47,680 nucleotides of DNA from assembly GCA_945787655.1 (NCBI GenBank), contig CALZIJ010000014.1, positions 1 through 47,680 of the forward strand. Reading direction: 5' to 3'. The translations under genes were made by a program, and so were the position numbers. Source of the stretch: Nitrospiria bacterium. GTDB taxonomy: Bacteria > Nitrospirota > Nitrospiria > SBBL01 > JAADHI01. Shown in pieces: positions 8,165-43,541 of the stretch. The stretch's first letter is position 1. Every line of letters begins with the position of its first letter. The notes beneath the pieces were generated by a model that saw only the letters and a list, made by a program, of their open reading frames with translations, searched no databases and was not told where the DNA came from.

Positions 8165-9247
8165 TTACTGTGGAAAGGTGTCTGGCGCTTTTATCTGCTG
8201 CCATCCTTTACCACTCAGTGTTTTCATAAAAGCCACAAGGTCTTTTTGTTCGACTTCGCTTAAATTCAGCGGTAAGACCAATGGTGACAAAAATGGGTTT
8301 TTAACGCCGCCATTATTGTAAAAAGCGACGACTTCCTCCAAGGTATTCAGGCTTCCGTCATGCATGTATGGTGCGGTATGTTCAATTTCCCGTAAGGTCG
8401 GCGTTTTAAACCCTCCAATATCTTTTTGTTTTTGGGTGACATTGTAGCGGCCAACATCCACGGCTTCATGCCCCCAGCCAACACCCAGGTTGTGGAAGTT
8501 TTCGTCAGCAAAATTAAAACCCGAGTGGCAAATTCCGCAACGGGCTTTTCCTCGAAAAAGCTTTAATCCTCTCTTGGCCGAATCGGAGATTGCTTTTTGA
8601 TCTTTTCCCGTTTCGAATCGGTCGAAAGCACTGTTCCCTGAGAGGAAGGTGCGTTGATAGGCGGCAATGGCTTTCCCGACAGATTCAAGGGAAATAGGCG
8701 TATCAAAGACCGCCTTGAATTGCTTTTTATATCCTTCAATGCTGTTGAGTTTTGCGACCATTTCGTTGTTGTCAAGAAACCCATGTTCAATGGGGTTGGT
8801 GAGTGGGCCAACAGACTGGGCTTCGAGTGTGGGTGCGCGACCATCCCAAAATTGTGTTGTTGTAAAGGCTCGGTTCAAGGCAGTGGGTGCACTTCTACCA
8901 CCTTGCTGTCTTTTGATTCCGGTTGAAACGGGCTGCCCATCCGTAAAAGCAAGTACAGGGATATGGCAGGTTGCACAGGAAATACTATTATCCCGGGAAA
9001 GACGTTTATCAAAAAAGAGGAAGCGGCCCAGGGCGACTTTCTCTTCTGTCATGGGATTATCTGCAGGAATTTTAAGAGAAGAGGCATCCAAACCCAAAGG
9101 CAGGTTTAACTGCATCTCTTTTGCGGAAGTGATCGGCGTGTTCAAGAATAAGATGACAAGAAAGAGCAGGAAAATAATGGCATCCCATTTTGATATATGA
9201 AGCATTTTGTTTTCCGGAGTGAATAGAGAGGGTTTATGATTTTTCAT
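8165..9247 (-). CDS. Di-haem cytochrome c peroxidase (CcpA/MauG family)
   Basis: two CxxCH motifs ('SCATCHIPVLAFTDGQPVSTG' and 'RCGICHSGFNF'), 'LGRFLFFDKRLSRDNSISCATCH', N-terminal hydrophobic signal. Confidence 0.94.
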   Translation of the reverse strand: MKNHKPSLFTPENKMLHISKWDAIIFLLFLVILFLNTPITSAKEMQLNLPLGLDASSLKIPADNPMTEEKVALGRFLFFDKRLSRDNSISCATCHIPVLAFTDGQPVSTGIKRQQGGRSAPTALNRAFTTTQFWDGRAPTLEAQSVGPLTNPIEHGFLDNNEMVAKLNSIEGYKKQFKAVFDTPISLESVGKAIAAYQRTFLSGNSAFDRFETGKDQKAISDSAKRGLKLFRGKARCGICHSGFNFADENFHNLGVGWGHEAVDVGRYNVTQKQKDIGGFKTPTLREIEHTAPYMHDGSLNTLEEVVAFYNNGGVKNPFLSPLVLPLNLSEVEQKDLVAFMKTLSGKGWQQIKAPDTFPQ

Positions 9248-9428: not shown

Positions 9429-10886
9429 TTATTGCAACCGGAGCGATTTCAGCATTTTTTCTGAGGTTTCCTTGCCTTGTTGAACACAATCTGGAATTCC
9501 GACACCCCGGTAAGGCGCTCCGCAGAGAAAAAAACCCGGATGTTTTTGTGTTTCGTGTTCGACATTGGAAACCCAATCAAGATGACCGACATGATACTGC
9601 GGATTGGCCTTATTCCACCGAAAGGTGCGGGCAACAACGGGTTCGCCATTAATCTCTAGAATGGGTTTCAACTCCTTGTGGACGGTAGAGATTAAGTCGG
9701 CATCATCCTGTTCAGTCACTTCGGGGTGGTGAGCTCCTCCCATAAAAACACGAATAAGAACATGGTCTTTAGGAGCGCGACCCGGAAATTTGGTCGAACT
9801 CCAGGTCGATGCCATCATGGAAGACGGTTCTTTCCGTGGTACAACAAATCCAAATCCGTTTAAAGGATGCTGAACGTTTTTTCTGTTAAATCCCAAAGAA
9901 ACCGTTGCAGTAGAAACATAGGTCATTTCCTGAAGCAATTGGGAGAGGGGATGATCCCATGGTTCTATCCACCGGGCTGCGGTGTAGGTAGGCGTGGTGA
10001 TGGCTATGGCATCTGCGGAAATATGCGTATCTTCAGTCTGCACGTTGTATCCTGAGTTTTGCGGGGAAACAGATAAAACGGGACAGTTCGTCTTGATTTC
10101 TACCTGGTCCAGTTTTTCTCTTAGTGCAGAGACAAGACTTGAAAGACCTTCATCCAGTGTCACAAAGAGAGACCATTTTGGAGGCGGATGCCCTTGTTTT
10201 TTGCTCTGGCTCTGACGTTTAAGCATGCCTTTAATTAAACTGCCATGGGCGTGTTCCAATTGGGCAAACTGCGGGAAGGCGGCTTTCATACTGAGTTTCT
10301 CAGCATCACCCGCAAAAATGCCAGCGAGTATGGGTTCCGCAAAAAGCTGAACGGCTTCTTCCCCCAAGCGGCGCCGAACGAAAGAAGCAATACTTTCATC
10401 TTCGATGGATGATTTTTTCGAAATAAACAGATCCATTCCCATCCGGACTTTTCCCGGAAGCGAGATCAAAGGGCTTAGGGCAAAAGGGAGGAGTTTCCCG
10501 GGTACCATGAGGTTAAAGCCTTTCGGCATGGCGACGAGTTTTCCCATGGAAAGAATATAAACTGATTTATGGACCGGATGGGTTTGAACGAGACGGTCGC
10601 TGAGGCCAAGCGCTTCGATAAGTGCCATACCCCCTTTTTTTTGGGTGATAAAAGAATCCGGACCGCCTTCAATGATAAAGTCATCCACTCGCTCGGAAAC
10701 AATTTTCCCTCCGAGCCGGGGACTGGATTCAAGCAGGCAAAGATCAATGGGATAACCTTCCTTTTTAATTGTTTCCTGAAGAAAGTATGCGGTTGAAAGC
10801 CCCGTGATCCCGCCGCCTATAATCAATATTTTTTTACGAGTGGATGACATTTGCGCCATTTTACGTGAATTGCGTGTGGGTTTCAA
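9429..10886 (-). CDS. hemG: Protoporphyrinogen/coproporphyrinogen oxidase (HemY/HemG type)
   Basis: 'KKILIIGGGITGLSTAYFLQ...PRLGGKIVSERVDDFIIEGGPDSFITQKKGG' and C-terminal 'FFLCGAPYRGVGIPDCVQQGKE'. Confidence 0.92.
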   Translation of the reverse strand: MKPTRNSRKMAQMSSTRKKILIIGGGITGLSTAYFLQETIKKEGYPIDLCLLESSPRLGGKIVSERVDDFIIEGGPDSFITQKKGGMALIEALGLSDRLVQTHPVHKSVYILSMGKLVAMPKGFNLMVPGKLLPFALSPLISLPGKVRMGMDLFISKKSSIEDESIASFVRRRLGEEAVQLFAEPILAGIFAGDAEKLSMKAAFPQFAQLEHAHGSLIKGMLKRQSQSKKQGHPPPKWSLFVTLDEGLSSLVSALREKLDQVEIKTNCPVLSVSPQNSGYNVQTEDTHISADAIAITTPTYTAARWIEPWDHPLSQLLQEMTYVSTATVSLGFNRKNVQHPLNGFGFVVPRKEPSSMMASTWSSTKFPGRAPKDHVLIRVFMGGAHHPEVTEQDDADLISTVHKELKPILEINGEPVVARTFRWNKANPQYHVGHLDWVSNVEHETQKHPGFFLCGAPYRGVGIPDCVQQGKETSEKMLKSLRLQ

Positions 10887-26050: not shown

Positions 26051-26656
26051 CTAAAACCCTTGTTTCCCATAATTTGCACGCCCAGAAGTCTCTCTTTGCA
26101 CGCGGTCTCTACTGGCATTGTGAAAGAGGTCATTGTCGATGTAGGTCACAGAATGTACTTGTGTTTGTTCCGTTTCTTCGATTTGAAGAATCATACGCGT
26201 TGCCCCGTCATCCCAAAAAAGAAGGCGTATTCCAGTGAGGTCGTTGATTCGGGGTGGGCCATACTGTTTTGTGTTCTCTTCAATTAAAGTGCTTAGAAAG
26301 GTGTCTGGTTTATGAATCGGATGATAGATTAATTCGATTCTAAAGAGCCGGTTTTTATAAAAATCAGCAAGGACGTTTTTTAAGGAATCCGGGTATGCCG
26401 AGAGGTCGAGTTCATAACGATGTTCATCTGGAAATTGCCCGATGGCCTTTTCAACAGGTTTCCCTTGGGTTGTTTTCAAAAAGGCATGATGCTGCATGTC
26501 GAGTTGAATAGGACCATGTTTTCTTGGTATCGGCGCAGCCCCTTTAAAAATCGCATGAATGGCCAGCGCTTCTTTTAAAGGAAATGAGACAAAAAGCAGG
26601 AACACCAGTAAAGAAAGGGGGGGTAAAGCTTTTTTATGCATGTTTAAAATTGCCAC
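26051..26656 (-). CDS. Hypothetical secreted protein
   Basis: 201-aa ORF with hydrophobic N-terminus 'LSLLVFLLFVSFPLKEALAIHA'; start overlaps the upstream membrane gene. Confidence 0.65.
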   Translation of the reverse strand: MAILNMHKKALPPLSLLVFLLFVSFPLKEALAIHAIFKGAAPIPRKHGPIQLDMQHHAFLKTTQGKPVEKAIGQFPDEHRYELDLSAYPDSLKNVLADFYKNRLFRIELIYHPIHKPDTFLSTLIEENTKQYGPPRINDLTGIRLLFWDDGATRMILQIEETEQTQVHSVTYIDNDLFHNASRDRVQRETSGRANYGKQGF

Positions 26657-27084
26657 TGCCTTAACATGGCAGCGATAAACACGATGATTAAGCCCACGGC
26701 GAGACTCATTTTCGCATAGATTAAACTGGGGATTTTATCGGGGTGATCTTCATCGGCCGGCCGAATAAGACTAAAAAGTGGAAAAGCCGCCAAGCCAACG
26801 ATTAAAAACACCTTAACCGCAAGGGCCGAGATATAACCGGGGGGGATTTCTTCATATCCCGCGCGTCTTACCCCGAAATTCATTCCCCCGGTGATCACGA
26901 GAACCAAAAGGGACAAGAGCGAAATTTTTGTAAAGCGTCTGGATATTTTTAAAAGTAACCCGTGTGATGGATCTTCAGGTTTGATAAAAGGAATCAAGAA
27001 AAAAACTTGGAAGGCATTTCCGCCGATCCAAATGATGACCGAAACAAGATGTAACCAGTGATTAACGACTGCAAAAGAATTCAT
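26644..27084 (-). CDS. CopD-like four-TM membrane protein
   Basis: 'VVNHWLHLVSVIIWIGGNAFQVFFLIPFIK...' with four hydrophobic segments. Confidence 0.65.
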   Translation of the reverse strand: MNSFAVVNHWLHLVSVIIWIGGNAFQVFFLIPFIKPEDPSHGLLLKISRRFTKISLLSLLVLVITGGMNFGVRRAGYEEIPPGYISALAVKVFLIVGLAAFPLFSLIRPADEDHPDKIPSLIYAKMSLAVGLIIVFIAAMLRQWQF

Positions 27085-27156: not shown

Positions 27157-28149
27157 TCACATCTTTTTAGAAGAGGGATCTTTTAAATAATCTTTCATAC
27201 GCTCAAGCATTTCTTCATCGATCAACCCGATGTTTCCTTTTGTTTCCATATAGGATTTGATGTCATCCAGACGTTTTGAGGCCTCTGTGTTGTTTTGAAG
27301 ACGACGGATTTTTTCTTTGGCATCTTCGAAGCCGTCAAAAGTCATTTCATCATAACCAAAGGTTCTCAGTCGTTTCATGGCCTTCATCATGGCTTCATTC
27401 CTGAAGGTGGTTAAGTGTTCCGAGCCAATCGTGGTCAGACCCATTTTCCGGGCTCGGCGTTCGGCGGCTTTTTTAATCCCGCTTCGAACAAAATCCGGAG
27501 AGGTCATGAGTCGCTTTTCGGCTTCAACACTCCATTTTATGTCGCTTTTAGGAGAATCCCATATTTGGGTGGCCGCTGCCAAATCGATCCGTTTGATGCC
27601 GAGTTCACGGGCCAAATCTTCCGCATCATTTTTGAGCATGTCACGGACAAAGTCGCGGGCCATTTCAGGGGATTCCGCAATTTTTTGCTCCAAGCGCACA
27701 GTTGCGGCATCGGTCCATTCAATATCTGATTCGGGTTTCTCTTCTTTGACATCCCCTAAAGCTTCTGCTTTTTTCAGCAGTTCCATATCGACTTCGAGAT
27801 GACCACGCTCCAGGGCCACTTCTTCGGCAATTTTTCGAATCATGCCTCGCATAAATTCAGGGACCGTTTCAAGCCGTTCCTGGGCTTCGCGTGTCCAGGC
27901 CAGTGTTTTGGTCTCCACACCCGCAGCCGCATGGGCCGCCCCCGTGCCTTCCGCTGCCATCGGGGTCATCATTTTGTCCTTAAACTGGGCGAGGACTTCA
28001 TCCGTAATGACCGTGATGCCCAGCTCTGTGGCCTTTTTTTCCGAGAGATTACGGACCATTTTCCGCAAGAAAAAAGGGGCTTTTTTTAATCGCGCTTCGG
28101 CCTCAGGTGTCCATGTAATTGTCGATTGTTCTTTTTTTGATCCAAACAT
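27157..28149 (-). CDS. Protein built of four tandem PCP_red-type domains (ChlB/BchB C-terminal-like)
   Basis: Four copies of W-[ST]-x2-[AE]-x4-L-x-...-P-x-[FM]-x-R-...-A-x2-[LMG]-G: 'ITWTPEAEARLKKAPFFLRKMVRNLSEKKATELGITVI', 'LAWTREAQERLETVPEFMRGMIRKIAEEVALERGHLEV', 'IEWTDAATVRLEQKIAESPEMARDFVRDMLKNDAEDLARELGIKRI', 'IKWSVEAEKRLMTSPDFVRSGIKKAAERRARKMGLTTI'. Confidence 0.85.
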   Translation of the reverse strand: MFGSKKEQSTITWTPEAEARLKKAPFFLRKMVRNLSEKKATELGITVITDEVLAQFKDKMMTPMAAEGTGAAHAAAGVETKTLAWTREAQERLETVPEFMRGMIRKIAEEVALERGHLEVDMELLKKAEALGDVKEEKPESDIEWTDAATVRLEQKIAESPEMARDFVRDMLKNDAEDLARELGIKRIDLAAATQIWDSPKSDIKWSVEAEKRLMTSPDFVRSGIKKAAERRARKMGLTTIGSEHLTTFRNEAMMKAMKRLRTFGYDEMTFDGFEDAKEKIRRLQNNTEASKRLDDIKSYMETKGNIGLIDEEMLERMKDYLKDPSSKKM

Positions 28150-28160
28150 GTTCGCACCTC

Positions 28161-29552
28161 TTATTTCTTTTCCGGAGTGCTGGCTTCAGGTACGCCACGA
28201 TCAAACTCCGTAAAATTAAAACGCCTGCCCATGCGAACCTCTGCCTGCTCGCGCACGGTTTGCATGACTTCCGGCGTAATCAATTGAATGTTATTTTCTT
28301 TGGCATAACGCTCGACTCCGCTTGAAACCATGCCTCGTGCAAATGAGGGTAAACCTTTGAGGCGTTCAAGTGAAGCAGGGCTCCATTCCAGGGTCATTTT
28401 TACTTCCAGCCCGAATGTTTGTTCTGTTCCCAGGGTAATTTTTTCTCCACCATATTCTCCGGGCTGGTAATCACAGGCCGGATCTTCAGCCAGGTAATCA
28501 TCGTGAGCGGCATAGGCCCGGCAGCGGCACCCGCCACACATTTCTGAAAATTCACAATCCCCGCAGCGGCCGCCCAATACAGGATCTCTCAGATCATTTA
28601 ATACAGGAGAGGTTTCCCATATTTCGTCAAAGGATTTTTCCCTGAGATTCCCTGCCGTGACCGGCATGTACGGGCAGGGTGTAATATCCCCGGAGGGGGT
28701 AATGCGACAATAATATTTTCCGGCGGGGCAGCTGCCCTGTGCGTAATTCTTGAGTAAGGCGGAGTCGGGGTCGAGATCATAAATCACTCGTCGGAAATGA
28801 GGTGCGCATTTTGCTCGGAGAATCAGGCCATGACTTTCTCCTGCAGAAGAGGTCCAGGGATCGTCGTAAGAGGTAAAAAGTGATTTTTCTTCGGCAGCGC
28901 TTTGTGTCCCTACGCCTTGAGCACGGGCAAGATAGCTTGAAATTTCCCGATACTGTCTGGGGGTGATGTCCTCAATGCCCTCACCTCGTCCGGTTTTAAC
29001 AAGAAAGAAAAAGTTCAGTACCTTGGCGCCTAAATCGCGTGACAGGTCAATCATTTTGGGTATTTCTGAAACATTCCACTCCATTACACTCATATGAATG
29101 GAGAAATCCAGACCCTCTTCCTTGAGAAAGTTGATTCCCCGGATTGCATTTGACCAGGCATTGGGAAGCTGACGAAATCGGTCATGTTTGACCGGATCGA
29201 CAGAATCAAGACTAATTGAAGCGCCTTGCAGACCACTTTCCCGCATTCTTCGGGCTTCGGTTTTGCCCAAGAGCACACCGTTCGTTCCAAGTACGCAGGT
29301 AAAGCCTTTATCCGAGCCGTAGGAAGCGATATCAAAGATATCTTTCCTCACTAAAGGCTCGCCGCCGGTGAGAATCAAAAAGACATTGGGATTGACTTTT
29401 TCAATGTCGTCCATCACCGTGAAACATTCTTCGGTTGTTAAATCACCGGAGACATCGGCATTCGGGAATCCGCTGATATAACAGTGGGTGCAAAACAGGT
29501 TACACCGCTGGGTCAGATTCCACGATACAGAATAGGCTTGATAAGAGGGCAT
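28161..29552 (-). CDS. SPASM radical SAM protein (AhbC/AhbD/NirJ-like) with C-terminal PCP_red-type domain
   Basis: 'WNLTQRCNLFCTHCYISG' CxxxCxxC; 'ILTGGEPLVRKDIFDI'; 'GRCGDCEFSEMCGGCRCRAYAAHDDYLAEDPACDY' as in tetrapyrrole-modifying radical SAM enzymes; C-terminus 'LEWSPASLERLKGLPSFARGMVSSGVERYAKENNIQLI'. Confidence 0.9.
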   Translation of the reverse strand: MPSYQAYSVSWNLTQRCNLFCTHCYISGFPNADVSGDLTTEECFTVMDDIEKVNPNVFLILTGGEPLVRKDIFDIASYGSDKGFTCVLGTNGVLLGKTEARRMRESGLQGASISLDSVDPVKHDRFRQLPNAWSNAIRGINFLKEEGLDFSIHMSVMEWNVSEIPKMIDLSRDLGAKVLNFFFLVKTGRGEGIEDITPRQYREISSYLARAQGVGTQSAAEEKSLFTSYDDPWTSSAGESHGLILRAKCAPHFRRVIYDLDPDSALLKNYAQGSCPAGKYYCRITPSGDITPCPYMPVTAGNLREKSFDEIWETSPVLNDLRDPVLGGRCGDCEFSEMCGGCRCRAYAAHDDYLAEDPACDYQPGEYGGEKITLGTEQTFGLEVKMTLEWSPASLERLKGLPSFARGMVSSGVERYAKENNIQLITPEVMQTVREQAEVRMGRRFNFTEFDRGVPEASTPEKK

Positions 29553-32254
29553 TAAAATCCCTGACTGCGCATGGCTTCAACCCAACGCTCTGTCACTTCA
29601 TTTAACATCTCGACAGTCACTTTCCCCAGGCCTTTTTCATCGGCACAGGCTTCGATTTCCTGAACCACAGTGCCCCGGACAAATGAAGGAATGGCGGAAA
29701 TGCGGGAAATCGCTTCATCTTCCCAGGAAAGCCGACGTTCCACTTTTTTTGAAACCTGCGCCCACTGCGTATATTTGTCATGAACGACCGAGGGATCAAT
29801 TTTCCGAATCCCTTTTTTTCGCGCATCTGCTTCAATTCGCCAACGCGTCATCTCCCGCATAAAACCTTCCGGGATTTCCCCCAAAATGGCGGTTGCGGTG
29901 TCGGTCCAATGCATTGGGGCATCATCTTTTAAAGGGCTTTCCTTTCGTTCCAGTTTCAAGGCATATTCCCCGCCCGCTCCACACAGTGAACATTGTTGGG
30001 GCGAAGTTTGCTCCGTAATCAGGCTGCATACCATACAGATAAAATAGTCGATTTCTTCCTGCATTAGCATAAAACTGCCTTTTTTTGCTTCACAAATTGG
30101 ACAGTGTTCGGGAACCTGCCGAACCACGTGGCCGCACATGCCGCAGAAATGAAGGGTATCTTTTGGATTCTGGTCTGGCGTCTCATCGCCAGACATTAAA
30201 GCCATTTTCTGTTTGATTTCTGCCAAACTGGTGGCTCCGGAAAGTACGTCTTCCATTTCCTGGGTGGCTTTTGCTATGCCGGCTTCGGCAACGTCCAGAG
30301 TAATGTGTTTGATATGATTTGAAAAAGCATAGTTTTCAATATGCTGCCGTGTTGCATCCCGCATGAAACCCACTGGGACACGGTCCAAACGATCTTTTCC
30401 TTCATCACTCCAGGTGAATTGCGGTGTCGCAGGTTCCGGTTTTTCCGGCGCGGCCTGTGGCGTTTCCTTTGCCGTTTGAGGTTGTTCTACTGCTTTTGAA
30501 ATGGCTTTGGCGGCCATTTCCACGTTTTCTTCCAAGTCTTCATCCAGTCCTTTAATCATTCGGATGGCGAATTCATTTGAAATGGTGGTAAATCCCATTT
30601 TTCGGGCAGTTTTTTCTACTTTTGCCTTGGCTCGCCGCCGTTCAAATCCGGCGGGAACGGCCCGAAGGGTATTTTTTGCGTCTTCTGTCCAGTTTAAAGG
30701 AACGCCGTCATAACCCACTTCTAGAGAAAGTCCACCTTCAGCCTTGGCCGCTGATTCAAAAAGAGATTTGTCCAGGAATTGAAACGCTTCGCCATCCGCG
30801 CTGCAGATCGGGCAGGCGACCGGCTTGGTGCCCTTCGCGGTGTACCCGCAATTTCCACAGACATGGAAATCCTGTTTCGCTTTTTCCTCGTAGCTTTCTG
30901 CCCGTTCGGTATCGCGGTCTTTCACAATGTCGGTCATCATCCCTGCGATACCGCCGCTCCTCAGGCTTTCGGCCACTGCGTCGTCCGCTTTCATTTTATT
31001 GCGGTCGATGCCTTTTTCATCCAGGACTTTCCCCATGTTTTTCATCATATCGATGGAGGACTGCGGCAGGATTTCCCCCATTGCGCCGTCGACCACCGAA
31101 TTGGTGATGATGGAGTAGCCTTTTTCAACCGCATAGCGGTAAACGGCGGTTTTGGCCACGCCGCGCGCAAAAATCGGAACTTTTTCCATGCGTTTGGAGG
31201 CCTCTTCCGTCCAGGCGACCGTGTATTCGGCGATGGCATCGATGGGCGGCATATAGGTTTTGTTGGAAATCAATACATTGCACGGAGCCATGCGGATGAG
31301 GTTTTCAGAATTACTACCGACGTCCATTTCACTATCCGAGTGGACGCCGATTCGACCGACCACTAAAAGCCAGGGTTTTTCCTTTTTAATATATTGCAGA
31401 ACTTTTTCAAAAGGTTTCCCGTCCAAAAGCGAGGTGCTGATTTTTACGCCTTCTTCTTCGGCCATTTTTGTGCAGACCTCAAGGTGGGACTGGTAAATCT
31501 TTGCCAAACCGGAATCAATGACGTCTTCGTGCAGTTTTTCCTGTTCTTTAAAACGGAAGACTTTCCCTGCTTCTTCGTTTAAAACGCCTGAGATGGAGTT
31601 AAACACAGCATAGTGGTAATACGGGTCAAAGGCCGAAACAACATCTAAAGGCAGGTCATAAGCCTTCGCCATGGCCAGCGCGGTCTTAAATCCGCCAAAG
31701 GAATGGTGGCTTCCGTCCACGGCCACGACAATTTTCCTTAAACTTTTCGGGACGTCAGAAGTGGGTTCTTTGACCACGAAGATATCGGATTTTCGCACCC
31801 GGCGGATGGTCCGCTCGGTCACACTGCCGATCATGCTTTCTTTCACCGCGCCGACGCCCAGGGCGCCTAAAATCACGAGATCGTAGCCATTTTTAACGAT
31901 GTCTTCAACCAGAACCTTGTAGTTTTTGCCTTCAAGGGAAACACGCTCAACGGGGACATTGCTCTCGCTTGCTTTTTGATCAATAATGTCGAGGTAAGAA
32001 TCCGTAATAATTTCCAGTCCGCGTGTAATTAAGGAATCATGTATCTTCCGTTGGCGCTCCAGTTCGTTTTCATCATGATATTCTTCCGGAAGCCCCGCTT
32101 CCATCTGTTTAAAGCGCTTGTCATGCAGTTTTGCCGCATAGGCATGGCTGCCAATCACTTTCGAACCGAACTGCTGGGCCAACATCATTCCGACGTCGAT
32201 GGCCGTGTTCGAAAAATCCGAGTTGTCCACCGGAATATAGATTGATTTATACAT
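29552..32254 (-). CDS. 900-aa fusion: two UspA domains + five PCP_red-type domains + three rubredoxin-like zinc ribbons
   Basis: UspA: 'MYKSIYIPVDNSDFSNTAIDVG...VILGALGVGAVKESMIGSVTERTIRRVRKSDIFVV' and 'KIVVAVDGSHHSFGGFKTALAMA...LVVGRIGVHSD'; ribbons 'CGNCGYTAKGTKPVACPIC', 'CGMCGHVVRQVPEHCPIC', 'CMVCSLITEQTSPQQCSLC'; PCP_red-like copies beginning VAWTEEA, LNWTEDA, FTWSDEG, MHWTDTA, LSWEDEA. Confidence 0.88.
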   Translation of the reverse strand: MYKSIYIPVDNSDFSNTAIDVGMMLAQQFGSKVIGSHAYAAKLHDKRFKQMEAGLPEEYHDENELERQRKIHDSLITRGLEIITDSYLDIIDQKASESNVPVERVSLEGKNYKVLVEDIVKNGYDLVILGALGVGAVKESMIGSVTERTIRRVRKSDIFVVKEPTSDVPKSLRKIVVAVDGSHHSFGGFKTALAMAKAYDLPLDVVSAFDPYYHYAVFNSISGVLNEEAGKVFRFKEQEKLHEDVIDSGLAKIYQSHLEVCTKMAEEEGVKISTSLLDGKPFEKVLQYIKKEKPWLLVVGRIGVHSDSEMDVGSNSENLIRMAPCNVLISNKTYMPPIDAIAEYTVAWTEEASKRMEKVPIFARGVAKTAVYRYAVEKGYSIITNSVVDGAMGEILPQSSIDMMKNMGKVLDEKGIDRNKMKADDAVAESLRSGGIAGMMTDIVKDRDTERAESYEEKAKQDFHVCGNCGYTAKGTKPVACPICSADGEAFQFLDKSLFESAAKAEGGLSLEVGYDGVPLNWTEDAKNTLRAVPAGFERRRAKAKVEKTARKMGFTTISNEFAIRMIKGLDEDLEENVEMAAKAISKAVEQPQTAKETPQAAPEKPEPATPQFTWSDEGKDRLDRVPVGFMRDATRQHIENYAFSNHIKHITLDVAEAGIAKATQEMEDVLSGATSLAEIKQKMALMSGDETPDQNPKDTLHFCGMCGHVVRQVPEHCPICEAKKGSFMLMQEEIDYFICMVCSLITEQTSPQQCSLCGAGGEYALKLERKESPLKDDAPMHWTDTATAILGEIPEGFMREMTRWRIEADARKKGIRKIDPSVVHDKYTQWAQVSKKVERRLSWEDEAISRISAIPSFVRGTVVQEIEACADEKGLGKVTVEMLNEVTERWVEAMRSQGF

Positions 32255-32559: not shown

Positions 32560-34479
32560 ATGAGGTATTTTCTGCATATATTCGGTTTTTTCGTTATTTT
32601 GTTTAGGTTTTCAATCGGACCTGAATTGTTTGCCGAAGAAGCGCCGACCCCCATGATGGAGCCGATTGTTGTCACTGCCTCGCGTCTGCCTGCTCCGCAT
32701 TCTACAACATCCGCAAATAGTACCGTAATAACCCGGGAGGAAATTGAGGCGCGGCAGCCCAGGACGATCATGGATTTATTAAGGCAGGTTCCCGGACTTC
32801 ATGTGGACCAGCCCGGCGGCCGGGGCGGAGTGAGTTCGGTATATCTTAGGGGCAGCGACCCAAACTTTGTCGTGGTGTTGATCGACGGGATTAAAATGAA
32901 CGACCCGACAAACAGCCGGGGCGGTTCTTTTGATTTTTCAACGATTGATCCAGAGAGTGTCGCGCGCATCGAGATTATCCATGGTCCGTTGACATCTGTT
33001 TATGGGTCAGATGCCTTGGGCGGCGTCATCCATATTATCACCTCAGAGGGCGGAAAAACCCCTGAAACGCAAGTGACGGTGAAAAGCGGAACAAAAGATG
33101 ATTATTACGCCGGTCTCAACACACAGGCGGTGTTTGGCCGGGCAGAAGGGGCTTTTCAGTTTTCTGTAGAGGACGATGGCACATTGACGTCCGGCAGCGC
33201 ATTTTCCTCGAAAAATGTTCACGGGAATTTGCGTTTTTCCCCGGTAAAGTTGGCCTGGTTAAACCTCGTGTTGCGATACAATGAAAGCCGGGGAGAACGT
33301 TTTCCCGATGACAGTGGCGGACCCGCCTTTGCCGTACTGCGTGGAAGGGATTTGCGGGACGTTTCCTCATGGACTGCAGGCTTAAGCCTGGGAAGGGATT
33401 TTTCTCCACGGTGGTCACAACAGGGAAAGGTCAGTTTTTATCAACGGAATGAGGATACCGTTTCTCCCGGAGTTGCGCCGGGTGCGCGCGATCCATTCGG
33501 CATTCCCCCAAACCGCAGCGACAACCGGTTTGAGCGGCTTGAGGTCCAGTGGTATTCTGTTTTTAATCCGGGGAACCGATGGCAGTTTGTTGTCGGGGCA
33601 AACCTTCAATCCGAAAAAGGGGAAAGTCAGGGGGCTTTGGATTTTGGGGGAGGGCCGGTTCCCAATCGTTTTAAGGCGGACCGGGAAGTTGTGGCCGGTT
33701 TTTTTGAAACAGGACTTGAAATTTCAGAAAATGTGAACCTGGAGGGTGGTTTCAGGGTAGACGACCCTGAAGGTTTTGATCTCCAGTTTTCCCCCCGCCT
33801 GGGGTTTTCATATGGGCTTGAATCGACAAAAACCACGATAAAAGCGAATTGGAGTAAAGGGTTTAAGCTTCCCAGTTTTTTTGCCTTGGGCCACCCTGTT
33901 GTGGGTAATGCCTCACTTGTGCCGGAGACCAGCCGGAGCGCTGAAGCCGGAGTGACACAGAAACTTTTTTCATCCCGGTTGGTGCTGCGCGGAACGTATT
34001 TTACGAGCCGGTATTATAACCTGATTGATTTGCAGGAAGGGCCGCCGCCAATCCTGGTCAATCGGTCCGAGGTCAAAACAGAGGGGTTTGAAGCGGGTGT
34101 TGTTTTTCAGGTGAATTCTTTTCTTACGATGGACGGCCATATCAGCTACGTAAAATCCGAAATCGAAGGGTCGGATGAGGTGTTACGTAACCGCCCAAAG
34201 TGGCGTGGGGGCCTTAAAACCCGCGTTAATGTCTCCGGGGATTTTTTGGCCGCACTGGATCTTTTATATGTCGGCCGTGTTCATGATTCCTCAATTCCGA
34301 CCGGAGACCGACGCCTGGATGACTATGTGCGTGTCGATCTGGCGGGTCTGTGGCGGGTATCCGAGAATTGGCAGTTTTCAGGATCATTGGATAATGTCTT
34401 TGATGCCGACTATGACGAAGCCCTTGGTTTTCCCGCACCTGGAATTCGCCTCTATTTGGGATTGCGCTATTCTATCTAA
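32560..34479 (+). CDS. TonB-dependent outer membrane receptor, BtuB-like
   Basis: plug domain 'DLLRQVPGLHVDQPGGRGGVSSVYLRGSDPNFVVVLIDGIKMNDPTNSRGG...EIIHGPLTSVYGSDALGGVIHIIT'; C-terminal beta-signal 'GIRLYLGLRYSI'. Confidence 0.94.
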   Translation: MRYFLHIFGFFVILFRFSIGPELFAEEAPTPMMEPIVVTASRLPAPHSTTSANSTVITREEIEARQPRTIMDLLRQVPGLHVDQPGGRGGVSSVYLRGSDPNFVVVLIDGIKMNDPTNSRGGSFDFSTIDPESVARIEIIHGPLTSVYGSDALGGVIHIITSEGGKTPETQVTVKSGTKDDYYAGLNTQAVFGRAEGAFQFSVEDDGTLTSGSAFSSKNVHGNLRFSPVKLAWLNLVLRYNESRGERFPDDSGGPAFAVLRGRDLRDVSSWTAGLSLGRDFSPRWSQQGKVSFYQRNEDTVSPGVAPGARDPFGIPPNRSDNRFERLEVQWYSVFNPGNRWQFVVGANLQSEKGESQGALDFGGGPVPNRFKADREVVAGFFETGLEISENVNLEGGFRVDDPEGFDLQFSPRLGFSYGLESTKTTIKANWSKGFKLPSFFALGHPVVGNASLVPETSRSAEAGVTQKLFSSRLVLRGTYFTSRYYNLIDLQEGPPPILVNRSEVKTEGFEAGVVFQVNSFLTMDGHISYVKSEIEGSDEVLRNRPKWRGGLKTRVNVSGDFLAALDLLYVGRVHDSSIPTGDRRLDDYVRVDLAGLWRVSENWQFSGSLDNVFDADYDEALGFPAPGIRLYLGLRYSI

Positions 34480-36457: not shown

Positions 36458-38953
36458 ATGAATCCTTTTTTAAGCAGTTCTCATTTTCCATCCGCGTCTT
36501 CGGAAGAAGATCTTCAGCTCAAACAACAGCTTGACCGGCTGATCGCCGAGGACTTCGAAGGCGATTATTTTATGATGCTCGGGCGTTACCAACGCATCCT
36601 GGCCGACAACCGTCAGCGCGCGCAGTGGCCGGAGGTGCACGGGAAGCTCAAGACCCTGTTCCAGTGCGGAAAGGCCGTTCCGCTTGACGGCCCGATGATC
36701 GGCATTCCGGTGTCGATCCGGGACACCGATTATTTTAAGGATGCCGTCTCCCGCTTTGGAAAAGCGCGCTCAATTGTCGCGGGGATCGAATGGATGGCGA
36801 CGGTCTGGAACGCCACCTTCGCCGATACGGGCCTATGGATGGGCAAAACCTATGAACCCGTGTCCCGCGAAACGGTGTCCGAGAAATGCGAAAATGATCC
36901 TGAAGTGATGCTGGCCTACGATCCGAACACCACACGTATCGGCCGTAACTTTTTCCGCGAGCCGCACGACCCCAACCTGTTGCAGGGCGTAGGACTGCCC
37001 GTGCTCAATGAATTATGGCGTCTGCAAGACCGACCGCTTTCACCTGATGAAAAAGGGTTTGAGGGCGTTTTGCTTCAGCAAAATTTGGAGAAGGAAAAGG
37101 CCATCCCCTATACAAAAACGGGCGGCATTTTTATTGCCAACCTGGACGATTCCGTCGTTCCCGAAATGAAAGCCAAATCGGTGTATCAGCTCAATTACCG
37201 GTGGAACAATTTGCATCCGCCCTTTCCGATGACGCGCCTGATCGACGAAGTCGTTCAGATCGCGGACGGCCTTTTTCTTGGACAGCTTGTTTTCGCGTCC
37301 CGGCACTATAACCTGGGGACGATTGATCTTCCCCTGATTCCGGGTGAGCACGATTTGACCTTGGGCGAGCCCTATGCGCCGCGAGAGAAACCGCATTGGT
37401 GGGCGCGTTTTCTGGCTTGGCTGACTGGAAAACCCCGGACAAAATATGTGGACTACGGCTACCAAAACAACGGTTTTTTCCTCATGATGGACACCGCCTA
37501 CGCCCAACAAATCTATGACGACGACGCTTTCCCGCAGCTCAGGCCCCGTCCCGGCGAAAGCGGGTATGTCGAGCTGGGCTATGCCGGCGAGGCGGCTTCC
37601 GTGTCGGCAGCGATCGGTACGGCGGAAACAGAGTGGGTGGACGGGTGGCGGGACAATCCCCAGCTTCGGGACAAATTCACACAGCTGATCCTCGAGCCTT
37701 CCCCGAACCCGGCAGACACGGACGCCGTGCAATCGATGCGGCGCAAAGGGGAATCCGTCCTGCAAATGCTGAAACGCATCAGCGGGGAAATCTCGAAGCA
37801 GAGCAAAGCGGAAGACCATCTGCGCCATTTCGAGCAACTGAACCGGCTTTTTAGAAGCGGTGTGGCCCCCGTGATCCAAAACGGGCTGTTTCAAGGGCAT
37901 GGGAAGATGGGTTACAACACCCGGGCCGAAAGCACGAAAACCCATACGTGGTATGGCGAAAAGGAGATTACGAAAGGATTTGATTATTACCACGGCGCCA
38001 CCCTGAACCTGCATTTGGGATTTAATGAAAGCTTTGCGGAACAATTCAAACGAGTGGTGAATGAAAGCCTGCTGTTTCCGAGCGGCCTGGCGGCGAAGCT
38101 GGAAGAAAGCCCCCGGCCCGGCCCCAATATCCTGAACATGGTGTGGCGAAGTATCGGGAAGTATCTCTTCCCCTGGGCAGGGAAATCCTTCGAGAAAATC
38201 AGCGGTCGAAAACTGAGCATGCTGTTGGATGAAAGTGATGACCTGGAACTCCGATACCCCGATCGTGTCCGGGAACTTAAAGCGCATTTGGCGAGCGCGC
38301 CCCACTACGATCTTGTCCAGAAAAACTGCGGCCACTACTGGCCGAACCCCGGTCGTTACGCTCCGCATTTGGAATACGGAAGCTGGGATCGCGGCATGAC
38401 CGATGAAGACAAGGCCTTTTGGCTTGACCAGGCTGACCGGCATTGGGTCATGGGAAAAAACCTGCAAGACAAACGGATCTTAACGATGGACGCCGTCATG
38501 CGAATTGCGGACATGAATTACCAGGATCCCGATCCTTCCTTACTGGCGATTGCGGAAGCGGGTCCGTTGCCTTTCGCACGTCAGGGCTATGTTTTCCTGG
38601 GCGCGGATGATCAGGACTCGATCCTCTCCCTCAACCACCACGGCGGGGAAAAAAAGCGGGTTTTTCAATTTCACTATCGTTATCCAATGATCGGCGGCCC
38701 GGTGCCCATCGGTTATTGTCTGGACGAATTGGTCGAAATCGCTGACGGTTTGTTTCTCGGGCAGTTGATTTATTCCACCGCGCTTCATGTGCCTTTTCAT
38801 TCATCGGTGGACCCCGAAGATTACCAATATCAGCTTTTTGGCTACTTTTTGCTCTTGGATGACGATTGGCAGCGGCACCGTCTGGCCATCGGTTTTGATA
38901 CATGGCAAGAAAAGGCGTTTGACCTTGAACTGAGAAACGTGATCGGTTTTTAA
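36458..38953 (+). CDS. 831-aa protein of unknown family with internal duplication
   Basis: strong RBS; internal repeat 'VYQLNYRWNNLHPPFPMTRLIDEVVQIADGLFLGQLVFAS' vs 'VFQFHYRYPMIGGPVPIGYCLDELVEIADGLFLGQLIYST'; no family recognised. Confidence 0.85.
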   Translation: MNPFLSSSHFPSASSEEDLQLKQQLDRLIAEDFEGDYFMMLGRYQRILADNRQRAQWPEVHGKLKTLFQCGKAVPLDGPMIGIPVSIRDTDYFKDAVSRFGKARSIVAGIEWMATVWNATFADTGLWMGKTYEPVSRETVSEKCENDPEVMLAYDPNTTRIGRNFFREPHDPNLLQGVGLPVLNELWRLQDRPLSPDEKGFEGVLLQQNLEKEKAIPYTKTGGIFIANLDDSVVPEMKAKSVYQLNYRWNNLHPPFPMTRLIDEVVQIADGLFLGQLVFASRHYNLGTIDLPLIPGEHDLTLGEPYAPREKPHWWARFLAWLTGKPRTKYVDYGYQNNGFFLMMDTAYAQQIYDDDAFPQLRPRPGESGYVELGYAGEAASVSAAIGTAETEWVDGWRDNPQLRDKFTQLILEPSPNPADTDAVQSMRRKGESVLQMLKRISGEISKQSKAEDHLRHFEQLNRLFRSGVAPVIQNGLFQGHGKMGYNTRAESTKTHTWYGEKEITKGFDYYHGATLNLHLGFNESFAEQFKRVVNESLLFPSGLAAKLEESPRPGPNILNMVWRSIGKYLFPWAGKSFEKISGRKLSMLLDESDDLELRYPDRVRELKAHLASAPHYDLVQKNCGHYWPNPGRYAPHLEYGSWDRGMTDEDKAFWLDQADRHWVMGKNLQDKRILTMDAVMRIADMNYQDPDPSLLAIAEAGPLPFARQGYVFLGADDQDSILSLNHHGGEKKRVFQFHYRYPMIGGPVPIGYCLDELVEIADGLFLGQLIYSTALHVPFHSSVDPEDYQYQLFGYFLLLDDDWQRHRLAIGFDTWQEKAFDLELRNVIGF

Positions 38954-38973
38954 AACTGGCAAAAGGAGGGCAC

Positions 38974-41970
38974 ATGATGGATCAGCAATCTCATAGTTCG
39001 GGCGGCATCCATGTGGATTTTGGAAAACAGGTGGAAGATGTGCTCCGTGATGCGCGGGCGTTTTCTGTTTTTCCCATCCAAAATCATAATATTCATCAGG
39101 TGAAAACCCTGTCCGACCTGGCCTTAAGCCACATTAAACTGGACCAATTCCCTGTGGTCAAAGCATGGCGCGACCGCCTTTTTATGCCGGAGGGCACGCC
39201 TGAAATTTGCGATGAGCTGCCGCGTTTACTCACGGAATTCATGCAGCGTCCCGAAACGGAAAAATTGACGCCCTATACGCGGCGCGCCAAGGCATTGCAT
39301 TATGTTTTTTCAAATAAAACCCCCTTGGTGGGGGCCAATGATCTACTGCCCGGTCAAACCACCACCAGTTTCGTGGGGCCGGTCGTCTATGTGGACACCA
39401 TCGGCTACTGCATTTGGCCGGAGCTCAGGTCCGTTTCCCGGCGCGCCCAAAACCCCTTTAATATCCGCCCGGAAGTGGCCGAGCGGCTGAATAAGGAAAT
39501 CTTTCCCTACTGGCTGGACCATCATCCTGTTCAGGAAGCCGCACGCTACAACGATTACGATACCGACGCCTATGTCAATGACGGGCGGGATACGGTGAAT
39601 GGCGGCCGTTTGGGCGAGGGCCTGTCCATCGATCCGCCTCTTAGAAAAAAGGCGGGACAAACCCCGAAGTGCCAGGAGTTGATGGAACGCGTCGCGTTTT
39701 ATCTTTCCGACAAGGCGACCTGCGTCTCCCACACCGTGCCGGATTTCGAGCGATTACTGACACACGGCATGGATCAGCTGATCGCACGGATCAACTATGA
39801 CCTCTCCACCCTCCTGCCTGAAAAAGCACAGGAAATTGAATTTTTAAACGGCGTCAAAACCGTTTTTGAGGGGGCGAAAATTTACGCGGCCCACCTCTCG
39901 GAGGCCGCCGAGAAGGCAGGAAATACGGCCCTGGCGGCCATCTGCCGCAAAGTGCCTGCACGCCCGGCGGAGACGCTGCACGAGGCACTGACCAGTATTT
40001 GGATCTGCTATCATCTCTTGTTACAGGAAAATACCAATTTCGGCCTCTCCATCGGGCGTCTCGATCAATTACTGAACCGCTTTTATCTTGGCGATTGGGA
40101 GAAACTTTCGAGTGATGAAGCAAGAGCGGCCTATACCGGACGCGCGGTTGAACTGGTCTGCCACTTTTTCCTGCGCTGTTCCGATCATGTGCCGCTTTCC
40201 ACCGAAGGCTCCGAAACCCTCTTCGCTGGAAGCGGCTCCAATCAGGCGCTGACCGTGGGCGGCACAAAGTACGAAAACGGCCAGGTGCTCGACGCGGTCA
40301 ACGACATGACCTATGTGGTGCTCAAGGCGACGGAACTCCTGAGCATCCGCGACCCGAATGTGCACGCCCGCTATCACAAGGCAGTCCATCATCGCGATGC
40401 GGCGGGAAATCCTCTGCCCGAAGGCGAATACGATCCCTATCTCAAACGGATCAGCCAGGTCAATATCCTGACCCGCGCCACGCCGGCCCTGCACGGGGAT
40501 GTCCCTGTAATCCATTCCATGGCGCAATATTACGCCGCCCACGCGGAGGTCGGCGAGGAAGAAGCCCTGGCCGACGCCTACGACTATGCCTCGATCGGCT
40601 GTATTGAACAAAACGCGGCGGGCAAACATTACGGCAATACCGGGTCCACCCTCTTTGTCCTGCCCGCCGTTCTGGAACTGGCGCTCTTTGGCGGCAAGCA
40701 CCGGAGTGAGGGCATCGGTAAAGACGCACCCAACCTGTTTTACGATGAAACGGCCTATACTTCCAAACCGCTGACGCAAATGAAAAATATGGATGAATTC
40801 ATCGCGGCTTTCCGTTTTCAGCTGGATGAAATGGCCCGCCACGCCGTGCAATGCAACAATTACCTCGGTCGCGCGATGGAAACGGTGCGGCCCTCGCCCT
40901 TGCTCTCCGGCCTGTTTACGGGACCCACGAATGCCCCGGATTCCAAGGACGCCAAGTTCCGTGATGTGGCGGCGGGCGGTGCCAAGTATAATTCGGCGGG
41001 CGTTGCGATCATCGGATTGGCGGATATCATCGATTCTTTTTGCGTCATCGATCAGCTGGTCTTCGGCGGAAAAATCAAGGCCGCTGAATTACTTTCGGCG
41101 CTTCAAGCCGATTTCGATCCGGATGGCGCGCCGGATGAAAGTCCTCAACCGTTCTGGATGCGATTGATCCGCTTCCTGCAGTCCCTGTTTCGCCGGGAAA
41201 AAGAAGTGGGCGCCCTCCCCAAATTGACTCCGGAGCGGTTGCGGGACATCGTCGAAAAAATCCGCTTGGCGCCGAAGTACGGGGCTGGTGTCGACCAAAG
41301 CCCCGGGGGAACGTTTGAAAATACCCTGGCAGTACGATATACGCACCTCATTACAGAAATGATTCAGGATGTGTTTTATCAATACCGTACGCATCGCGGA
41401 GGCCGTTACCTGCCCGGATACTGGAGCATGACGAACCATGCCGGTTTCGGAATGCTGACAAAGGCGACCCCTAACGGCAGAAGAGCCCGTATGCCGTTTG
41501 CGAGCGGGATTACGCCCTGCCCCGGCATTGTCAAACGGAACGGGGAGCCGGTGATGATTCTGGATCATATCCTCTCCGTGGCCGAAGTGGACGGCGATAC
41601 GGTGCAAAACGGTTACACCTACAATCTCAGTTTGACCACCCGCGATCCCGGCCACTTCCCGGAGGACACGGCATTGTTTTCAAAATACATGAAGGCGTTT
41701 CTGGACCATGATGGCGTATTGGTTCAGCTCTGTGTCTCCTCGATTCAGGATTTGACGGCGGCGCACGCGGCGGCAACGGCAGCGGGCCAAAGCGGCGCGG
41801 GCGAGGCGGAAGCGGCGGCGCTGGCCCCTTACAAGGATTTAATGATCCGCGTGGCGGGCTATTCGGCCTACTTTGTGTCCTTAAGTCCGCAAATGCGGCA
41901 GGAGATCATTGACCGCTCTAATTTCGCGCTGGATTCCGGGGTGGAGCAGCACACGCTGGCAGCAATTTGA
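38974..41970 (+). CDS. Glycyl radical enzyme (PFL/diol-dehydratase superfamily), substrate class unassigned
   Basis: glycyl radical loop 'IRVAGYSAYFVSLSPQMRQEIIDR'; candidate thiyl Cys in 'DYASIGCIEQNAAGKHYGNTGST'; RBS AGGAGG; adjacent activase. Confidence 0.93.
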   Translation: MMDQQSHSSGGIHVDFGKQVEDVLRDARAFSVFPIQNHNIHQVKTLSDLALSHIKLDQFPVVKAWRDRLFMPEGTPEICDELPRLLTEFMQRPETEKLTPYTRRAKALHYVFSNKTPLVGANDLLPGQTTTSFVGPVVYVDTIGYCIWPELRSVSRRAQNPFNIRPEVAERLNKEIFPYWLDHHPVQEAARYNDYDTDAYVNDGRDTVNGGRLGEGLSIDPPLRKKAGQTPKCQELMERVAFYLSDKATCVSHTVPDFERLLTHGMDQLIARINYDLSTLLPEKAQEIEFLNGVKTVFEGAKIYAAHLSEAAEKAGNTALAAICRKVPARPAETLHEALTSIWICYHLLLQENTNFGLSIGRLDQLLNRFYLGDWEKLSSDEARAAYTGRAVELVCHFFLRCSDHVPLSTEGSETLFAGSGSNQALTVGGTKYENGQVLDAVNDMTYVVLKATELLSIRDPNVHARYHKAVHHRDAAGNPLPEGEYDPYLKRISQVNILTRATPALHGDVPVIHSMAQYYAAHAEVGEEEALADAYDYASIGCIEQNAAGKHYGNTGSTLFVLPAVLELALFGGKHRSEGIGKDAPNLFYDETAYTSKPLTQMKNMDEFIAAFRFQLDEMARHAVQCNNYLGRAMETVRPSPLLSGLFTGPTNAPDSKDAKFRDVAAGGAKYNSAGVAIIGLADIIDSFCVIDQLVFGGKIKAAELLSALQADFDPDGAPDESPQPFWMRLIRFLQSLFRREKEVGALPKLTPERLRDIVEKIRLAPKYGAGVDQSPGGTFENTLAVRYTHLITEMIQDVFYQYRTHRGGRYLPGYWSMTNHAGFGMLTKATPNGRRARMPFASGITPCPGIVKRNGEPVMILDHILSVAEVDGDTVQNGYTYNLSLTTRDPGHFPEDTALFSKYMKAFLDHDGVLVQLCVSSIQDLTAAHAAATAAGQSGAGEAEAAALAPYKDLMIRVAGYSAYFVSLSPQMRQEIIDRSNFALDSGVEQHTLAAI

Positions 41971-42653: not shown

Positions 42654-43541
42654 TTGGAACCACAGGCACTTATTTTTGATATCAAACGAGATTGCAGTGA
42701 GGACGGACCGGGCATTCGAACGACTGTTTTTTTTAAGGGTTGCCCTTTGTCCTGTGACTGGTGCCAAAATCCTGAGGGGCAGCGCAAAAAGCCGGGGTTG
42801 TCGTTTCGGTCCGAATTATGCGATCCGGCCGCTTGCGGATTCGCCTGTATCCCTTGTTGTGGCGTCGGGAGCCTTTCTTTCAAAAATACCTTAGAAGTCG
42901 ATTTTGATCATTGCATTCGCTGCGGCCGTTGTTTTGAAGTGTGTCCTACAAAGGCTCTGGAACCTGTGGGGTACTATATTGGCCTGAATGAATTGTTTTA
43001 CCGGGTTTTAATCGACGCGCCGTTTTACCGGTCAAGCGGAGGCGGTGTGACCTTGTCGGGCGGTGAGGTGACGGCCCAGATGCCCTTCGCCCATGCCCTG
43101 CTCAAAGCCCTCAAGGAACAAAATATTCACACGGCGATTGAAACCAGCGGCTTTTTTAATTACGACCACTTTCAGGAAAGGATGCTGCCCTATCTCGATG
43201 TGATTTATTTTGACCTGAAACTGATCGATGAAGCAGAAAGCATGCGATACACCGGCCGGTCAAACCGCTTGATTCTGGAAAACTTCAAACGCTTGGTGAA
43301 GGCGCCGAAGATTAATGTCATCCCGCGTATTCCCCTGATTCCCGGTATCACCGACAGCGCCGAAAATCTTTCGGGCATCGCAGCCTTTTTAAAAAAACTC
43401 GGCATTTCCGGAGCCGCATTGATGCCTTACAATCCCCTGTGGCACGATAAGTTGAATCGCCTGAATTTAAAGGGGAAATATTCCCGAAAAACCTTTATGA
43501 CCGCTGAAGAAAAAAGAGCGTGTATTGATCGGTTTCGTTAG
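42654..43541 (+). CDS. Glycyl radical enzyme activating enzyme (radical SAM with ferredoxin insert)
   Basis: 'RTTVFFKGCPLSCDWCQNPEGQ' CxxxCxxC; 'HCIRCGRCFEVCPTKAL'; 'SGGGVTLSGGEVTAQ'; TTG start (in-frame stop at 42642). Confidence 0.94.
   Translation: MEPQALIFDIKRDCSEDGPGIRTTVFFKGCPLSCDWCQNPEGQRKKPGLSFRSELCDPAACGFACIPCCGVGSLSFKNTLEVDFDHCIRCGRCFEVCPTKALEPVGYYIGLNELFYRVLIDAPFYRSSGGGVTLSGGEVTAQMPFAHALLKALKEQNIHTAIETSGFFNYDHFQERMLPYLDVIYFDLKLIDEAESMRYTGRSNRLILENFKRLVKAPKINVIPRIPLIPGITDSAENLSGIAAFLKKLGISGAALMPYNPLWHDKLNRLNLKGKYSRKTFMTAEEKRACIDRFR

Follow-up and report, generated by a model that had tools for sequence, protein, structure and literature searches.

What is a domain of the chlorophyll pathway doing, in ten copies, in a bacterium whose genome yields no chlorophyll reductase subunit of the kind that carries it? 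The question is raised by a 47,680-nucleotide stretch of a Nitrospiria bacterium (contig CALZIJ010000014.1 of assembly GCA_945787655.1, positions 1 to 47,680; the whole stretch is called the window here). Three contiguous genes on its minus strand, named USP-PCP, rSAM-PCP and PCP4 after their domains, encode proteins rich in PCP_red, the domain found at the C-terminus of BchB/ChlB, components of the dark-operative protochlorophyllide reductase (DPOR). Our comparisons give a slightly better than even chance that this operon is part of a widespread and undescribed system which would handle or modify iron porphyrins in non-phototrophs; no description of a PCP_red system was found in the open-access literature searched. 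The three genes and their PCP_red copies are as follows.

29552..32254, minus strand: USP-PCP gene, 900 amino acids, with tandem Usp domains, five PCP_red and three rubredoxin-like ribbons
28161..29552, minus strand: rSAM-PCP gene, 463 amino acids, with radical SAM and SPASM domains and one C-terminal PCP_red
27157..28149, minus strand: PCP4 gene, 330 amino acids, with four PCP_red and a helical tail
31085..31213, minus strand: PCP_red copy 1 of USP-PCP, 51.9 bits
30572..30691, minus strand: PCP_red copy 2 of USP-PCP, 37.2 bits
30284..30412, minus strand: PCP_red copy 3 of USP-PCP, 37.8 bits
29780..29908, minus strand: PCP_red copy 4 of USP-PCP, 38.9 bits
29597..29725, minus strand: PCP_red copy 5 of USP-PCP, 41.3 bits
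28254..28385, minus strand: PCP_red of rSAM-PCP, residues 390-433, 45.8 bits
27979..28113, minus strand: PCP_red copy 1 of PCP4, 57.4 bits
27766..27897, minus strand: PCP_red copy 2 of PCP4, 55.2 bits
27577..27717, minus strand: PCP_red copy 3 of PCP4, carrying an insertion, 26 bits alone and below the cut-off
27409..27534, minus strand: PCP_red copy 4 of PCP4, 44.4 bits

The open reading frames of USP-PCP and rSAM-PCP overlap by one base and PCP4 follows rSAM-PCP after 11 nucleotides, in agreement with the initial annotation, which had described the three genes from the letters alone. It had also counted by eye 5 + 1 + 4 repeats resembling the C-terminus of BchB/ChlB, and the same counts are returned by Pfam, where PCP_red (PF08369, gathering cut-off 32.5 bits) scores 172.4 bits over five stretches of USP-PCP, 41.6 bits over one of rSAM-PCP and 160.1 bits over four of PCP4; nine of the ten copies pass the cut-off singly. 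Every other Pfam family of the three proteins likewise exceeds its curated cut-off, namely Usp (115.4 bits, two stretches), RUBY_RBDX (51.5 bits, three stretches), Radical_SAM (76.9 bits) and SPASM (40.8 bits). The resemblance itself is borne out by a profile built from the window repeats and three other copies of the same genome, whose PDB matches at E <= 3.1e-9 are the C-termini of BchB/ChlB (2xdq, 2ynm, 3aek, 8vqi, 2kru) and Asr4154, a stand-alone Nostoc protein of known structure (2l09); the next match is a designed protein at E = 6e-4. Judged by sequence, the assignment of the repeat to PCP_red is far beyond chance. Four residues of the units (W, P, R and A) never vary, and F and E almost never do.

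Does PCP_red then mean chlorophyll? The genome to which the window belongs (3.04 Mb, 98% complete) holds 13 PCP_red matches and none of them is BchB, which rules out this reading here and upholds, as far as BchB is concerned, the early remark that no chlorophyll genes are visible. No PCP_red protein of this genome, inside the window or outside it, has the nitrogenase-like domain that marks DPOR (BchLNB); outside the window, two further matches lie in a 241-residue zinc-ribbon protein and a weak one in a ferredoxin fusion. PCP_red is present in all 39 sampled relatives up to the level of the class Nitrospiria, nearly always in multiple copies, and the commonest count per Nitrospiria genome in a larger sample is 12. 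This class includes Candidatus Manganitrophus, the named group adjoining that of the window, and Leptospirillum. Among the sampled genomes of Nitrospirota that belong to other classes, roughly one in four has PCP_red, in one to eight copies. PF08369 has served as a phototrophy marker (PMC12815261); in view of its class-wide occurrence and of a genome without BchB, PF08369 alone is unfit for this purpose.

The genes also travel together, and they do so widely. Two of the refuting conditions named in the initial annotation, a lack of matches to PF08369 and a lack of co-occurrence, are thereby not borne out. USP-PCP and rSAM-PCP occur together in 44 loci and are at most 250 nucleotides apart in 36 of these. 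Beyond Nitrospirota, rSAM-PCP is found in Methylomirabilota, Rokubacteria, Poribacteria, Nitrospinota and Planctomycetota (Brocadia, Scalindua and others), and 95 of 97 rSAM homologues bear at least one PCP_red. Frequent neighbours are USP-PCP, an Mrp/NUBPL protein, an additional protein with PCP_red and a membrane protein resembling CopD; several Poribacteria loci encode on one strand USP-PCP, Mrp, a PCP_red protein, the CopD-like protein, rSAM-PCP and a second small PCP_red protein. The three genes first proposed as a system are thus real, and the system is larger than these three, taking in Mrp/NUBPL, the zinc-ribbon PCP_red protein and the CopD-like protein across several phyla. In another Nitrospirota family (locus L094) rSAM-PCP and PCP4 form a single protein, and PCP4 is therefore tied to the radical SAM enzyme. 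As a variation, seven loci of Brocadia and other Planctomycetota encode an rSAM-PCP with three C-terminal PCP_red units.

What kind of enzyme is rSAM-PCP? Its defining motif is placed as follows.

29481..29504, minus strand: radical SAM CxxxCxxC motif of rSAM-PCP, CNLFCTHC, residues 17-24

These cysteines are invariant across 39 orthologues. Placed in one tree together with AhbD, AhbC and NirJ-like relatives, rSAM-PCP (support 87/89) is the sister clade of AhbD (100/96, represented by only four rows), and both split off from AhbC/NirJ at 100/100. It had been described as an enzyme of the AhbC/AhbD/NirJ type, of which the tetrapyrrole group stands, with the refinement that it is closer to AhbD than to the other two. 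Family scores agree with the tree, being about 270-345 bits on the AhbD/NirJ2 models versus about 150-220 on AhbC/NirJ. The window protein reaches 301 bits on TIGR04545 (AhbD; full-length relatives 285-345), below the cut-off of 500 bits, and only 185 bits on TIGR04546 (cut-off 650) and 193 bits on TIGR04051 (cut-off 515), which places it outside AhbC/NirJ. C249, C275, C293, C342 and H252 are common to rSAM-PCP and AhbD and absent from AhbC/NirJ, so that rSAM-PCP has both the CxxxCxxC motif and the auxiliary Fe-S cysteines of the AhbD type; twenty positions are fixed in rSAM-PCP and absent in AhbD. Because it scores below the AhbD cut-off and lies outside the AhbD clade, as drawn from its four rows, we do not file it as AhbD, and by these sequence measures it is a new AhbD-related radical SAM family. 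Its gene has a history of its own, since in the rSAM tree the order of the window groups with Methylomirabilota/Rokubacteria while the USP-PCP tree follows Nitrospiria. The two trees contradict a vertical history of the whole operon, and the rSAM gene was therefore probably exchanged between phyla.

The predicted model of rSAM-PCP is of good quality (predicted local distance difference test, pLDDT, 82.5; predicted template modelling score, pTM, 0.83), with the C-terminal PCP_red as well-folded helices, and the closest solved folds are PqqE, SuiB and SkfB, which are SPASM enzymes that modify peptides. Could the substrate then be something other than a porphyrin, such as a peptide or a quinone, with PCP_red as an electron-transfer or Fe-S docking module of a system that matures or feeds Fe-S and radical SAM proteins? 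Besides these folds and the rubredoxin-like ribbons fused to PCP_red, such a reading can draw on the rest of the genome. At C66:6014-7714 an Mrp/NUBPL-type Fe-S P-loop NTPase precedes the zinc-ribbon protein, whose ribbon is N-terminal to its two PCP_red, and the two genes are found side by side repeatedly in Nitrospiria and Poribacteria. On contig C8 (L010:9794-11993) the weak PCP_red is joined to a ferredoxin of the 2Fe-2S type, and the neighbouring gene encodes a B12-dependent radical SAM enzyme akin to slr0320 (NF045585, 468 bits, below the cut-off). However, PCP_red is carried as well by HemQ, which is not an Fe-S enzyme, the radical SAM enzyme groups with AhbD by family scores and tree, and no precursor peptide was seen, a systematic search for one not having been made. 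We regard the Fe-S reading as quite unlikely.

Some further arrangements of these partner genes were observed. In some Nitrospiria the Mrp/NUBPL and zinc-ribbon pair is accompanied by a heme-oxygenase-like di-iron protein and DUF420. Relatives of the B12-dependent enzyme on C8 precede USP-PCP in Nitrospira, and in a further Nitrospirota lineage (three loci, L096-L098) a zinc-ribbon protein with one PCP_red comes directly after a B12-binding radical SAM enzyme.

The heme pathway provides a different set of partners. In two Nitrospiria families (f7 and f10, three loci) PCP_red is fused to an intact HemQ with its proximal histidine, and in a third Nitrospirota family (f22) PCP_red matches occur in 8 of 8 genomes, with a fusion to a degraded HemQ-like domain read in seven; PCP_red is N-terminal in the fusions of all three. 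The conversion of coproheme to heme b is the reaction of both AhbD and HemQ (PMC7242693). An AhbD-like radical SAM enzyme and HemQ both carry PCP_red, and therefore two unrelated enzyme types linked to one reaction share the module. BchB, in which PCP_red was first recognized, is itself a porphyrin reductase (PMC7242693). Moreover, at L094 the genes for USP-PCP and the rSAM-PCP/PCP4 fusion are followed after 57 nucleotides by HemY (TIGR00562, 291 bits; cut-off 97.85), all consecutive on one strand. The tetrapyrrole link proposed at the outset is strengthened by the HemQ fusions, the HemY-containing operon and the sister relation to AhbD. Each of these clues alone is circumstantial; taken together with BchB they make a porphyrin a likelier substrate than a peptide, and the tetrapyrrole reading is the best-supported one.

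Given this kinship, is rSAM-PCP simply the housekeeping enzyme that makes heme b? It might be an oxygen-independent coproheme decarboxylase that replaces AhbD in the coproporphyrin pathway under conditions where HemQ is short of oxygen or peroxide, with PCP_red helping to take coproheme from ferrochelatase. The sister position and the shared cysteines suit this proposal, as does the use of an AhbD-like gene within a HemE/HemH operon by other Nitrospirota that lack HemQ. The clearest case is one genome of family f11 (G023), in which HemE, HemH and HemY are present and no HemQ, HemN above its cut-off or other AhbD was found, HemF not having been searched; in a fragmented assembly of family f15 (G068) no other final-step heme enzyme was found either, again with HemF not searched. 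On the other side, most Nitrospiria and both of the Nitrospinota genomes searched possess HemQ in addition to rSAM-PCP. The genome of the window itself holds HemH, HemY and HemQ, the last as a separate gene without PCP_red. Family f9, without HemQ, has HemN above its cut-off alongside rSAM-PCP. In anammox bacteria rSAM-PCP stands beside AhbC and a separate AhbD; the complete genome of Brocadia pituitae has AhbC above its cut-off and an AhbD-like protein of 496.7 bits (cut-off 500). One further genome (G113) has an AhbD-like gene inside a HemE-HemH operon and a separate rSAM-PCP after a Usp fragment. The twenty positions fixed in rSAM-PCP and absent from AhbD also speak against a replacement. 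A role as sole housekeeping coproheme decarboxylase is weakened by the HemN of f9 and the separate AhbD of anammox bacteria, and we consider the decarboxylase proposal unlikely. Because it coexists with HemQ, HemN or a true AhbD in most genomes examined, the system is probably a tailoring branch rather than a housekeeping step of heme b synthesis.

The largest protein of the operon, USP-PCP, has the following parts in addition to its PCP_red copies.

31259..32254, minus strand: two Usp domains, from Pfam and motif reading
30782..30862, minus strand: rubredoxin-like ribbon 1 of USP-PCP, with C466, C469, C481 and C484 conserved across phyla
29951..30160 (limits approximate), minus strand: rubredoxin-like ribbons 2 and 3 of USP-PCP, from RUBY_RBDX stretches and cysteine pairs

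The Usp domains span about residues 1-165 and 171-332, and both contain the ATP-binding motif G-x2-G-x9-G-S (GALG...GS at residues 130-144, GRIG...GS at 300-314), which is strongly conserved across phyla. With PF00582 above its cut-off and the ATP motif in place, USP-PCP qualifies as a universal stress protein. Its predicted model, of low global confidence (pLDDT 66.6, pTM 0.42), resembles beads on a string, in which each repeat is a small helical bead, and the fold of the Usp half matches tandem USPs including Rv2623 and TTHA0350. Plasmid matches of USP-PCP were set aside as relatives, since those listed cover the Usp part only and the annotated ones are ordinary haloarchaeal stress proteins.

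Such a protein could be imagined as a sensor of tetrapyrrole or redox stress that responds to heme or porphyrin by controlling other proteins. The ATP motifs would fit, and the rSAM-PCP gene of anammox bacteria is followed by genes for a dCache histidine kinase and a response regulator; the same seven Planctomycetota loci continue with a transglutaminase-like protein, and those of Brocadia with a CBS-domain protein as well. Yet the operon contains no DNA-binding, kinase or output domain, the constant partner of USP-PCP is an enzyme, and the kinase neighbourhood is limited to Planctomycetota among the loci seen. A sensor is thus a very improbable explanation.

How, then, would a system for iron porphyrins work? 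From the domain content, gene linkage, phylogeny, conserved cysteines and fusions described above we infer a scheme for ligand, reaction and carrier. rSAM-PCP would most likely perform oxygen-independent radical chemistry on the side chains of coproheme or a related heme, and the product is perhaps a modified heme. PCP_red would be a docking module that holds or hands over the macrocycle, or docks its carrier, beside the enzyme to which it is fused, be it the radical SAM enzyme, HemQ or BchB; USP-PCP and PCP4 would then be multi-site carriers or scaffolds. The Usp domains would bind ATP, and they and the rubredoxin-like sites would serve in control or electron supply, the rubredoxin-like sites and Mrp being a possible source of electrons or clusters. 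Multivalent ligand loading, sensing and a stress or redox control through these sites, as suggested in the initial annotation, are conjecture. The Mrp/NUBPL and zinc-ribbon PCP_red proteins encoded elsewhere in the genome are candidate partners.

Several observations weigh against this picture. The repeat alignment reveals no conserved metal-ligating or axial-heme-ligand residue among the PCP_red units, and for this reason any binding would have to rely on packing and propionate contacts, for example through the invariant W and R. In f22 the proximal histidine is missing from the HemQ-like partner, so that fusion to PCP_red does not by itself imply catalysis. Canonical heme genes seldom adjoin the system, the cases being HemY at L094, HemE a few kilobases off at L070 and L158, and an AhbD-like gene at L085. 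Support for the monophyly of rSAM-PCP is moderate, and by the gene content seen rSAM-PCP is usually, not provably always, additional to another final-step enzyme.

Two further genes lie directly downstream of the three.

26644..27084, minus strand: small CopD-like membrane protein, 146 amino acids, near rSAM-PCP elsewhere
26051..26656, minus strand: predicted exported protein, 201 amino acids, family unassigned, linked within the order only

The CopD-like gene (CopD, 28 bits) is likely the fourth gene of the operon; in Nitrospirota and Poribacteria it adjoins rSAM-PCP or lies close by, and its conserved residues are H12, W19, G21, G22 and K91. The His/Lys spacing is presumably HemJ-like, which we take as a lead only. 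Resemblance to UPF0093/HemJ is weak and seen in one homologue only; the HemJ model TIGR00701 (cut-off 138 bits) gives no match for the window gene and 16 bits for the homologue, scores too weak for an identification as HemJ.

Upstream of USP-PCP, at 32560-34479, a divergent TonB-type outer-membrane receptor was recognized by sequence, and it holds the same position only in the nearest sampled relative (L070). Elsewhere in the window, at least 16 kb from the operon, are CcmF of cytochrome c maturation (7-2028, likely followed by more ccm genes) and HemY (9429-10886). A MauG/MbnH-like di-heme enzyme (about 265 bits, below the cut-off) is encoded at 8165-9247, and at 42654-43541 a glycyl-radical-enzyme activase is suggested by its motif, near two large open reading frames at 36458-41970.

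The multi-gene set is present in nitrite oxidisers, anammox bacteria and metal oxidisers, cytochrome-dependent organisms that drive major cycles of nitrogen and metals. If heme is indeed modified or escorted, this would account for the role of PCP_red in non-photosynthetic organisms, give tetrapyrrole metabolism another branch and provide candidates for the making of unassigned hemes, that of cytochrome 579 being an example. This cytochrome of Leptospirillum contains a heme with a pyridine hemochrome at 567 nm that matches no known type (PMC8126622); its origin from the PCP_red system is speculation. A bolder and distinctly tentative version, possible at best, is that the genes form a pathway for a modified heme in Nitrospira, Nitrospina, anammox bacteria, Manganitrophus and probably Leptospirillum, serving for example bd-like oxidases or cytochrome 579, and that PCP_red is a general tetrapyrrole carrier later recruited into, or shared with, chlorophyll synthesis. 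Subunits of bd-like oxidases lie at most about 15 kb from PCP_red genes in five unrelated lineages (among them L010:2442-8181), in one of them (L095) shortly upstream of USP-PCP; there is no chance baseline behind this count of five loci, and a bd-like oxidase is not claimed as the client.

How does the proposed system compare with those already known? With BchB/ChlB of DPOR it shares the 45-residue C-terminal PCP_red, for which these proteins and Asr4154 are the only solved relatives; the nitrogenase-like domain is theirs, whereas here as many as five copies of PCP_red occur in one protein and the domain has moved onto different partner proteins. AhbD, the heme b synthase of the siroheme pathway, has the radical SAM/SPASM fold, the auxiliary Fe-S cysteines and a CAPH motif that are also found in rSAM-PCP, while rSAM-PCP has an extra C-terminal PCP_red and is usually outside heme operons. 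AhbC and NirJ, of the siroheme pathway and heme d1 respectively, belong like rSAM-PCP to the wider radical SAM group that acts on tetrapyrrole side chains, but form a separate clade without C249, C275, C293 and C342. The coproheme decarboxylase HemQ/ChdC is unrelated to rSAM-PCP in fold, and the feature shared with it is the PCP_red fusion of three families. Finally, the tandem USPs (Rv2623, TTHA0350, UspE) resemble the first 330 residues of USP-PCP, to which USP-PCP adds a C-terminal array of PCP_red and rubredoxin-like units and strictly conserved His-containing stretches.

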